This document shows, in pieces, positions 8,839-30,365 of a stretch of DNA of 64,000 nucleotides. This DNA comes from Siphonodentalium dalli (Eukaryota; Mollusca; Scaphopoda; Gadilida; Siphonodentaliidae): the NCBI GenBank assembly GCA_032622095.1, contig CP136061.1:21702991-21766990 (forward strand), in the 5' to 3' direction. Numbering within the stretch: position 1 is the stretch's first letter; the number at the start of each line of letters is the position of its first letter. The translations under genes and the position numbers were made by a program. A model generated the notes under the pieces. The model ran no database searches. It saw nothing but the letters and a program-made list of their open reading frames with translations, and was not told the origin of the DNA.

Positions 8839-9051
8839 CTGATCTGACGGACTATAACTCACTCTTTTGCCGCCTCGTAATGGCCGTCGGGGGAAATTCT
8901 GTTCGACCAAGTCTGTAGTGGATGCTGGAGGTGAAGACGCCCGCATGTTACGACACACTTCCAGGGGGTCTTCAGTTAATATAGGTAGATCGTGGTTCAA
9001 CCTCACCTGGTTTTTGGCATGATACTGATCCTCCATGCCGCCCAGAGACAT
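8839..9051 (-). CDS. STRIP1/2: STRIP coding exon 9 (last one in window)
   Basis: A 71-codon exon in phase 0 at both ends. It begins MSLGGMEDQYHAKNQVRLNH, contains LPILTEDPLEVCRNMRASSP and PASTTDLVEQNFPRR, and ends SYSPSDQ. It matches CTLGGFEELQ...LPPLPEDSIKVIRNMRAASP and PASASDLIEQ of human STRIP1. Acceptor TTGTTCAACAG; donor ATCAG/GTGGGA. A possible internal donor CCAG/GTGAGG lies 45 bases in and could give a shorter form. I found no further exons between here and position 1, so about 500 C-terminal residues (the DUF3402-type region) should lie outside the window. Confidence 0.93.
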
Positions 9052-10583: not shown

Positions 10584-10735
10584 CCTTTTTATGATGGGAG
10601 CTTCCTAACTTTTTGCAAAAAACCCTGTGCCAATGCATTCTCTTATATATGCGAGTTGACCATAGGTCGCCTTGCATATATAAGAGAATGCATTGGCCTA
10701 ACAAAGAATGTAAGAAATAATGATAAAAAAATACT
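10580..10735. mobile_element. Truncated TTAA MITE abutting STRIP exon 8 donor
   Basis: Begins TTAACCTTTTTATGATGGGA and contains a complete GCATATATAAGAGAATGC hairpin. It fades out four bases from the STRIP exon 8 donor and shares TTAA with the element to the left. Confidence 0.7.
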
Positions 10736-10738
10736 TAC

Positions 10739-10869
10739 TAAAACAATCTTCCATAAGAGCAGCAAGACTTTTTTCATTGGAAAATGTAATGCATTGCCAC
10801 TACAGAAGCGAGTAACCATTCCAAACAAACTAATGGCTAGGATCTCTTCTCCAGCTACCAGAGGAGTGG
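10739..10869 (-). CDS. STRIP1/2: STRIP coding exon 8, with duplicated acceptor
   Basis: Encodes [20 protein letters not shown] then [20 protein letters not shown] and IVL. It matches SPLYNNEPFAIMLFGMVTKF and [20 protein letters not shown] of human STRIP1. The acceptor ATTTCAG at 10870-10872 and the first exon bases lie in a 49-bp tandem duplication. A second intact copy of the acceptor sits 49 bases upstream (exon would start at 10918) and a third copy has AG changed to AA. Use of the distal site would shift the frame (49 is not a multiple of 3). The donor is TTA/GTAAGT, followed within four bases by a TTAA-type MITE fragment. Confidence 0.95.
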
Positions 10870-10990
10870 CTGAAATTAATACATACAGAATTAGATTGTC
10901 CAGCTACCAGAGGAGTGGCTGAAATTAATACATACAGAATTAGATTGTCCAGCTACCAGAGAAGTGGTTGAAATTCATTGATATGGATTT
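10851..10990. repeat. 49-bp tandem repeat over a splice acceptor
   Basis: Unit starting CCAGCTACCAGAGGAGTGGC at 10851, 10900 and 10949. Read on the minus strand, each unit contains TTAATTTCAG plus the first exon bases. The third has CAG changed to CAA. Confidence 0.92.
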
Positions 10991-11285
10991 AGAAAATGTT
11001 GATTCCTTGCTCTTGATTCATAATAATGAGTTTGATTCCAGTACTCAGAGCATCAGTTTACCTTGGAGATATTTTGTCCACACTTTTGGACTTTTTCAAT
11101 CATCTGAACGAAAAATAACTCACATCACCTTTGGAAGGTCATGTGACATCATGAGGCCACTGGAGATAGAAGGGAGCTCCAGTTAAATATTTGAACATAG
11201 TTAGCAATGACATTTATGAATCGGAAACCTGAACTGGGAATCTGTTCAATCTCAATTCTGCACATGTTTTTTACTGTAATTATTT

Positions 11286-11402
11286 CATGCCGATTAAAAT
11301 TTTCACCGACAGATTGAACGCAAATAAAAATGTTGTATGCACGATGTTTTGTGATTATGTGCGCGGGCATGAGAATTGGGAAATACATATTGACTTTGCA
11401 TG
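11286..11402. mobile_element. Harbinger-related fragment, second copy
   Basis: Carries AGATTGAACGCAAATAAAAA and ends GACTTTGCATGGCC followed by TTA, as near 8.7 kb. The left end is not identified. Confidence 0.4.
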
Positions 11403-11425
11403 GCCTTATACCAAAAACGTAGGGT

Positions 11426-11835
11426 CAAGCCTTGAAATAGTGTCTGTCATTTGTAGAATGAGATGAATTTAGAGATGCTACCTCGCAAGTGCGCAAGCAT
11501 CAACAAATTCAACCTCTGGGGACTTCATTCTGCTTATAACTTATCTTCTGGGAAGTACCTAGAGTCTCAAATTAACATTGTTTTTAGTAACTTTTTCTGT
11601 TCAGTTTCTATATCGCCTAATTTGCAGAAGATAAAATACATAATCGAGGTGACCAATGGATGAACATCATCAACTTCAACTGGAGAACTTCAATCTGATC
11701 CTACGTCGCCCACAGCAGTTTTGAGGCCTCAGAATGAGGTCCCCAGAAGGTGAATTTAGTGATGATAGCCCTTTTGCAAGGTAGTGTCACTAAATTCTCA
11801 TTCTGAATATGACAGACACACTACTTCAAGGCTTG
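11426..11835. mobile_element. Composite element, CAAGCCTTG family
   Basis: Two decayed hairpins around the same core as at 9.1 kb; ends CAAGCCTTGAAATAG and complement intact. The TSD is degenerate. It stops 26 bases from the STRIP exon 7 donor. Confidence 0.8.
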
Positions 11836-11861
11836 ATACAGGGTATAACTTCCTGACTCAC

Positions 11862-11965
11862 CTAGATCCTGTATGAGTAATTCTGCAATCTCCTTCATTT
11901 CCTCCGAACTGTCATCGGTCGTCCTCACAGTCTCAACCATGGTGTAGAGCACATTAATAATTAAC
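11862..11965 (-). CDS. STRIP1/2: STRIP coding exon 7
   Basis: Encodes LIINVLYTMVETVRTTDDSS then EEMKEIAELLIQDL, corresponding to VLLNIMYLIVETVHQECEGD of human STRIP1; the acidic linker is variable in the family. Acceptor TTTTCGCAG; donor CTAG/GTGAGT, a strong site. The intron to exon 6 is only 281 bases. A composite hairpin element ends 26 bases beyond the donor. The final G plus CC of the next exon gives Ala. Confidence 0.94.
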
Positions 11966-12372: not shown

Positions 12373-12633
12373 CAAGCCTTGAAAAAGGGACTAGGGTGTC
12401 TGTCATTTGCAGAATGAGGTTCCCAGAGGGTGAATTTATTGATGCTACCCTGCATAGCAGGCTAGCATCACCAAATTCACCCTCTGGGGACCTCATTCTG
12501 CTTACACCTCAGCAGAATGAGGTTACCAGAGGGTTAATTTGGTGATGCTAGCCTGCTATGCGGGGTAGCATCACTAAATTCACCCTCTGGGGACCTCATT
12601 CTGCAAATGACAGACACCCTATTTCAAGGCTTG
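12373..12633. mobile_element. Dimeric hairpin MITE, CAAGCCTTG family
   Basis: Two hairpins back to back with only CTTACACCTCA between them, one outer CAAGCCTTG end on each side. Flanks GGTTCCCA and GATTTCCT are a plausible decayed TSD. Intermediate between composite and solo forms. Confidence 0.82.
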
Positions 12634-13411: not shown

Positions 13412-13445
<34 letters not shown>

Positions 13446-17262: not shown

Positions 17263-17497
17263 TTAACCCTGTCATGATGGGAGCTGCGCTGGTGCAGCAT
17301 TAAATATCCTGTCCCAGTGATTGCATTGGCTAACGTTATACACCTTGATCTTGTAAGCCAGTGCATACTCTTATATATGCGAGGCTCCCTATGGGAGACT
17401 CGCATATATAAGAGAATGCATTGGCACAGGGTTTTCGCAAAAATTCAGGAAGCACCAGTCATGAACGAGAGGCCGATCACGATCGGCAGATGTTTAA
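17263..17497. mobile_element. TTAA MITE, CATGATGGGAG subfamily
   Basis: Begins TTAACCCTGTCATGATGGGA; one good GCATATATAAGAGAATGC hairpin; right end diverged but TTAA present. Confidence 0.7.
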
Positions 17498-23342: not shown

Positions 23343-23781
23343 TTAACCTTACATGATGGGAGAACCGCTGGTGCAACATTAAAGTTCCACTGCCAGTGCA
23401 TTCTCTCCCATTGGGAGCCTCACATATATAAGAGAATGAACTGGCTTACAAAGTCAATGTAAATATAGTTAGGCCAATGTATTCTCTTATATATGCGAGG
23501 CGACATATGGGAGACTCACACATATAAGAGAATGCATTGGCACAGGGTTTTATATATAAGACAATGCATTGGCACAGGGTTTTATATATAAGACAATGCA
23601 TTGGCACAGGGTTTTATATATAAGACAATGCATTGGCACAGGGTTTTATATATAAGACAATGCATTGGCACAGGGTTTTATATATAAGACAATGCATTGG
23701 CACAGGGTTTTATATATAAGACAATGCATTGGCACAGGGTTTTCACAAAATTTCAGGAAGCTCCAGTCATGGAGAGGTTAA
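23343..23781. mobile_element. TTAA MITE with amplified hairpin arm
   Basis: TTAA at both ends and CATGATGGGAG/CTCCAGTCATGG termini. The right hairpin arm has expanded into six exact 32-bp periods (23541-23740) of TATATAAGACAATGCATTGG plus CACAGGGTTT. Its right TTAA is the left TTAA of the next element. Confidence 0.85.
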
Positions 23782-27578: not shown

Positions 27579-27870
27579 AACCATACAAATATGGATATCA
27601 TTGGAACCGGCTCATTGACCACATTGTGATAGTTATAGTTATGCCCTGTGCCAATGCATTCTCTTATATATGCGAGTCGACCATAGGTCGCCTCGCATAT
27701 ATAAGAGAATGCATTGGCCTAAAATTTTATCTTACATTCTTTAACAATTTTATAATTTTTAATGTGTTAAGCCAATGCATTCTCTTATATATGCGAGGCG
27801 ACCTATGGTCGACTCGCATATATAAGAGAATGCATTGGCACAGGGCCGTTCTGTTGGGTAAAGGGTTGAA
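27579..27870. mobile_element. Right part of the split TTAA MITE
   Basis: Continues AACCATACAAATATGGATAT exactly where the left part stops, with both hairpins and terminus CTGTTGGGTAAAGGGTT. The final TTAA is changed to TTGA. Confidence 0.85.
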
Positions 27871-30295: not shown

Positions 30296-30365
30296 CTGCT
30301 ATTTCATTGTTCCATGTGTCTGCATCATCATATATAAATTCCAAGTCTGGAGTATCACAGAAACT
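30296..30365 (-). CDS. STRIP1/2: STRIP coding exon 2
   Basis: Encodes SFCDTPDLEFIYDDADTWNN and then EIA, matching SESPDLEFEYADTDKWAAEL of human STRIP1 at the start of the N1221-type domain. The acceptor is TTGCAG and the donor GCAG/GTCAGT. It begins in phase 0 and leaves one base (G) that joins AG of the next exon to give Glu. A Helitron-like element ends about 31 bases beyond the donor. Confidence 0.93.

Follow-up and report, generated by a model that had tools for sequence, protein, structure and literature searches.

The analysed window, a stretch of 64,000 nucleotides from Siphonodentalium dalli, carries on its minus strand a STRIP gene in which the 3' splice site of exon 8 is duplicated by a 49-bp tandem repeat. 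Two adjacent copies of the repeat, referred to as A (inner) and B (outer), each contain a branch-point-like site, a pyrimidine stretch, an AG and an exon start; the positions of these and related features are given in Table 1.

Table 1. Features of the STRIP gene and of the 49-bp repeat (positions are those of the window).
Feature	Positions	Strand	Remarks
Exon e2, first placed	30365-30296	-	
Exon 7, 104 nt	11862-11965	-	Donor GTGAGT; ends in phase 1
Intron 7, 992 nt with the copy A acceptor	10870-11861	-	
Copy C, outermost, diverged	10948-10996	-	CAA for CAG, CTAAA for CTAAT; TAG retained at 10955-10953
Copy B, outer acceptor module	10899-10947	-	Possible branch A in CTAAT, 10940; CAG, 10921-10919; then 20 exon-like bases
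Copy A, inner acceptor module	10850-10898	-	Possible branch A in CTAAT, 10891; CAG, 10872-10870; then the initial 20 bases of exon 8
Exon 8, productive form, 131 nt	10739-10869	-	
Exon 8 extended via the copy B acceptor, 180 nt	10739-10918	-	Frameshift; stop codon starts at 10832
Exon 9	8863-9051	-	

Identification of the STRIP gene

Eight exons (e2 to e9) were located on the minus strand between positions 30365 and 8863 with a human STRIP1 probe, and their splice sites were read from the sequence. Joined through the acceptor of copy A, these exons form a single open frame of 297 amino acids, which matched the Pfam family N1221 (PF07923) with an E-value of 3.7e-43 (148.2 bits versus a cut-off of 27) and human STRIP1 in PDB entry 7k36_I with an E-value of 2.5e-76 over query residues 2-289. 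Since both matches were obtained with the joined protein, the identification is independent of the probe, and it corroborates the preliminary description, which had named the gene as STRIP. The label 'exon 8' fits if the first placed exon is exon 2. A pseudogene or retrocopy was ruled out, as the eight intron-separated exons join in one open frame.

Intron 8 is 1687 nt long, and below position 8863 the human probe found no convincing exon in the window for the conserved C-terminal half; the remainder of the gene may lie beyond the window, past position 1. Identity to the human probe varied among exons, being about 33% for e4 (20616-20485), about 41% for e5 (16609-16489) and about 81% over 36 residues for exon 8 (67% over 45 residues in another comparison). 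Such uneven divergence may point to a fast-evolving STRIP copy.

Structure of the 49-bp tandem repeat

Tandem Repeats Finder detected a period of 49 bp at positions 10850-10975 (2.6 copies, 97% matches), and a separate repeat search delimited three 49-nt copies with spacings of 49 and 49 nt, arranged on the minus strand in the order C, B and A and followed by the remaining part of exon 8. Copies A and B are identical at 49/49 bases, and the best ungapped match to the unit elsewhere in the window reaches 27/49; an exact repeat of 49 bases cannot be due to chance. Both searches, together with this identity, uphold the earlier proposal that the repeat duplicates the acceptor. In copies A and B, the candidate branch A is located 21 nt before the last intron base, the pyrimidine stretch is moderate (11/17; the other acceptors of the gene have 8 to 12), and the exon part encodes ATPLVAG. 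The CAG sets the exon start at 10869 in copy A and at 10918 in copy B, the equivalent position in copy C (CAA) being 10967. Every copy also has a TAG 15 nt past the CAG position, which gives five AGs across the three copies; that of copy C would place a possible exon start at 10952. The earlier statement that two AG sites are intact and that the outermost copy has lost its AG is thus correct for the CAG, which is intact in A and B and replaced by CAA in C, but copy C still has its TAG and is not AG-free.

Identical 49-bp copies would be prone to variation in number or to miscounting, which raises the question of an assembly error or of a segregating allele that partly impairs STRIP. We regard this as unlikely, with copy C differing at 11/49 bases and so being no mere repeat of the same reads. 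Very improbable, in our estimation, is a repeat-number switch, in which each 49-nt unit would shift the frame by one, and gain or loss of units between individuals, together with the share of splicing taken by the outer module, would set the level of functional STRIP; if this were true, the doubled STRIP acceptor would act as a length-variable splicing rheostat.

Reading frame according to the acceptor used

Splicing at site A, the CAG of copy A (exon start 10869), preserves the reading frame across the eight placed exons, and between the two CAGs it is only this inner one that does so. From site B, the CAG of copy B (10918), exon 8 gains 49 nt and encodes ATPLVAG, then out-of-frame residues, up to a stop at 10832, located 91 nt before the exon 8 donor. 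The stop reached in the joined exons confirms that use of the distal site adds 49 nt and shifts the frame, as had been suggested. NMD acts on transcripts with a stop more than about 50-55 nt before the next junction, and by this rule the distance of 91 nt to the end of exon 8 is sufficient, so that the site B transcript is a predicted NMD substrate.

A stop follows from each of the 12 AGs listed on the upstream side of site A (11118 to 10903, the upstream span tested for frame). Among the four AGs listed downstream of site A, the frame is kept by those giving exon starts at 10854, 10848 and 10845 and lost by that giving 10843; site A is not the sole frame-keeping AG. The residues ATPL at the start of exon 8 align with GSPL of human STRIP1, which favours site A over the TAG located 15 nt further in. 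This TAG (10857-10855) was considered as the true acceptor and is less likely; it would keep the frame at the cost of ATPLV, whose residues PL align with human STRIP1.

Strength and accessibility of the acceptors

With a position matrix built from the seven other acceptors of the gene, to which little weight is given because the sites are so few, the A/B acceptor obtained a score of -1.4, the lowest of eight (2.4 to 7.04 for the others), and several other AGs of intron 7 had higher scores, up to 6.66. With a consensus matrix, A and B scored 4.96, the third lowest of the eight acceptors (4.14 to 11.04), and they were exceeded by six of the 62 AGs to which the matrix was applied (11820 to 10740). 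The A/B acceptor is weak by both of these crude scores, which speaks against a strong site. RNA folding revealed no clear difference in access between the two modules, with unpaired probabilities of 0.46 in B and 0.48 in A for the tract plus AG, and of 0.57 and 0.62, respectively, for CTAAT.

Intron 7 also contains a pseudo-exon candidate of 42 nt on the minus strand (11062-11103), with an acceptor score of 9.68, near those of the stronger half of the gene's acceptors, and a donor, AAG/GTAAAC, scoring 7.38. When read on from exon 7, its third codon is TGA, which makes it a possible poison exon. Acceptor-donor pairs of comparable grade number nine on the minus strand of the window, real exons included, and seven on the plus strand, so that a chance origin of the candidate is likely.

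Origin and history of the repeat

Copy C matches copy B at 38/49 bases, namely 19/29 on the intron side and 19/20 on the exon side, and its differences are accordingly uneven (10/29 in the intron part and 1/20 in the exon-like part; Fisher p 0.017). In the distal intron part the two copies share 12/21 bases, more than any of the 21 pairs formed among the seven other acceptors, for which the values range from 4 to 10. Copy C thus seems to be an old duplicate of the entire unit. We infer that a short tandem duplication took in 29 bases of intron and 20 of exon at the STRIP exon 8 acceptor, probably in at least two steps: an older doubling would have left copy C, which now has neither the CAG nor CTAAT, and later copying of the inner unit would have made B and A, the outcome being two complete and identical acceptor modules 49 nt apart. 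Copies B and A may derive from this later doubling or may have been homogenised by conversion; their identity argues for a fairly recent duplication or conversion rather than for an old, tuned switch. The better-kept exon part of copy C suggests partial conversion or a smaller first event, and a simple two-step history accounts for its uneven divergence only if conversion followed or the first duplication was smaller. The absence of a CAG from copy C would agree with selection acting against an outer acceptor that shifts the frame, although a single case is no evidence of it and the direction of the change is assumed.

The window is rich in tandem arrays, with 47 Tandem Repeats Finder rows. 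These rows were merged into 30 arrays, leaving out four simple arrays with periods of 1 to 4 (at 13413, 27470, 51938 and 57945), and the arrays were placed at random, on the assumption that repeats can arise anywhere with equal ease. In 61% of trials an array covered one or more of the eight located STRIP acceptors, and in 24% of trials when only arrays of at most 300 nt were used. An array on a STRIP acceptor is therefore unsurprising by itself, and the duplicated acceptor is probably accidental.

These results bear on the view that the outer acceptor serves regulated unproductive splicing, as a switch that would lower STRIP output via NMD in some tissues or states. The stop reached from the outer site lies beyond the usual 50-55 nt limit, and the pseudo-exon candidate with its own stop is found in the same intron, both of which would suit such a function; the identity of A and B at all 49 bases, however, gives no sign of tuning between the sites, and the position of the array is not unlikely by chance in a repeat-rich window. 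We therefore hold this view to be very unlikely, and regulation of STRIP acceptor choice is not indicated.

Pattern searches for relatives of the locus yielded none from 8 matches in viral contigs and none from 108 in genome contigs, these virus and prokaryote collections being uninformative on animals.

Other repeats in the window

A foldback element with 33-nt arms, 91% complementary, is located at 10629-10697, and similar elements occur at about ten further places (e.g., 1918-1964, 2064-2110, 17368-17414 and 27661-27707). The core pattern of these elements occurs 25 times in the window, in 22 instances as 11 close inverted pairs (expected 0.02), and the elements constitute a MITE-like family. 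The unit of a 32-bp tandem array at 23522-23743 (about seven copies, 99% matches) resembles the foldback arm by eye. Just upstream of exon 6, at 12409-12604, there is a tandem pair with a 103-bp unit and the motifs GCAGAATGAGGT and ACCTCATTCTGC; stretches similar to this pair recur in translated ORFs of the window.

Proposed mode of acceptor choice

The account as a whole, in which a minisatellite-type duplication doubled the acceptor, site A makes STRIP, some use of site B is removed by NMD and the arrangement is tolerated rather than selected, appears to us likely, a judgement that overlaps with the one given below for a silent duplication, the duplication history being common to both. An active gene requires at least some use of site A, and any use of site B is expected to be waste cleared by NMD.

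According to PMC9225289, when 3' splice sites are separated by more than 12-20 nt, each typically relies on a polypyrimidine tract and a branch point of its own and is defined at initial recognition, and the spacing in STRIP thus points to a competition between two equal modules. As a branch-point-like site is present in each module, acceptor choice would be set when U2AF and U2 snRNP settle on one of them, and not by AG scanning. Experiments described in PMC5389562 indicate that U2AF and U2 snRNP can bind both of two doubled strong 3' splice sites at once, with inhibition of splicing, and that three doubled beta-globin constructs were spliced very inefficiently and at the downstream site only. 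The classical result cited in PMC9225289 is instead the choice of the upstream 3' site, and the human transcriptome data given there favour upstream sites in general, less so when two equally strong sites lie between long introns, with no reversal stated. From these mixed published results, the direction of any bias between A and B would not be predictable with confidence. More general accounts deal with new introns and NMD (PMC2809761) and with selection against AG in the pyrimidine tract (PMC10946897).

The same literature allows a silent duplication, in which exon definition would send all splicing to the inner site and the outer copies would be inert intron. Introns 7 and 8 (992 and 1687 nt) belong to the long-intron class, for which PMC9225289 reports that choice across the exon gains weight, and the three beta-globin constructs, though spliced very inefficiently, used only the downstream site (PMC5389562). 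Set against this are the identity of both sites from -29 to +20 and the fact that, for equal 3' sites between long introns, the relevant part of PMC9225289 describes a reduced upstream preference and states no reversal. We consider a fully silent duplication to be possible, though doubtful.

The locus has value as a natural test of acceptor choice, as the preliminary description noted; it offers two intact and identical CAG modules, the outer one frameshifting. With identity from -29 to +20, any bias between A and B must stem from where they lie, from flanking sequence or from the remainder of the exon. Published doubled 3' splice sites point both ways, to the upstream site or to the downstream site only, and a natural animal case would provide an answer in vivo. 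If copy number varies between individuals, the locus would also show how splice-site duplications are tolerated.

Comparison with known systems

Literature searches found no published report of a doubled STRIP acceptor. Laboratory pre-mRNAs with duplicated 3' splice sites were reportedly described by Reed and Maniatis in 1986. In the globin constructs of PMC5389562, as in STRIP, a single donor faces two rival copies of the same 3' splice site, the exon piece after the upstream site being 14, 55 or 205 nt in one series described there and 20 nt in STRIP; the constructs are man-made and were tested in extracts, whereas the STRIP repeat lies in a natural gene, where the choice decides the reading frame.

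The potato RdRp gene PGSC0003DMG402000361, as described in PMC4974935, likewise has a tandem duplication that includes a putative branch site, polypyrimidine tract, 3' splice site and exon start. There, the outcome was a new intron with a recruited GT donor and inserted exon sequence, whereas in STRIP the copies seem to enclose no adequate donor, and an alternative choice of acceptor is predicted. An intron gain in progress of the potato type, in which a short new intron would begin at a GT within the exon bases of copy B and end at the copy A CAG, would share with the potato case an origin by tandem duplication across an intron-exon boundary (PMC4974935) and could draw on CTG/GTAGCT, present in the exon part of A and B, whose donor score of 4.24 by a donor matrix falls among those of the gene's real donors (2.53 to 11.09). 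We judge it extremely improbable, as the intron of 38 nt and the exon of 11 nt would both be very short and the 11 nt would shift the frame.

NAGNAG tandem acceptors (PMC3250501) resemble the STRIP case in having two AGs at one intron end; the isoforms described there differ by three bases, whereas the STRIP CAGs are separated by 49 nt, each has its own branch-point-like site, and a change from one to the other alters the frame. Mouse Csn1s1 (PMC3048548), with an 18-nt exon array of 14 copies, is similarly an intragenic tandem duplication containing splice sites; according to the description given there, an exon and part of the downstream intron were multiplied, in contrast to STRIP, in which only the acceptor side of the junction is repeated. 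The STRIP case is best filed in the known class of tandem-duplicated 3' splice sites.
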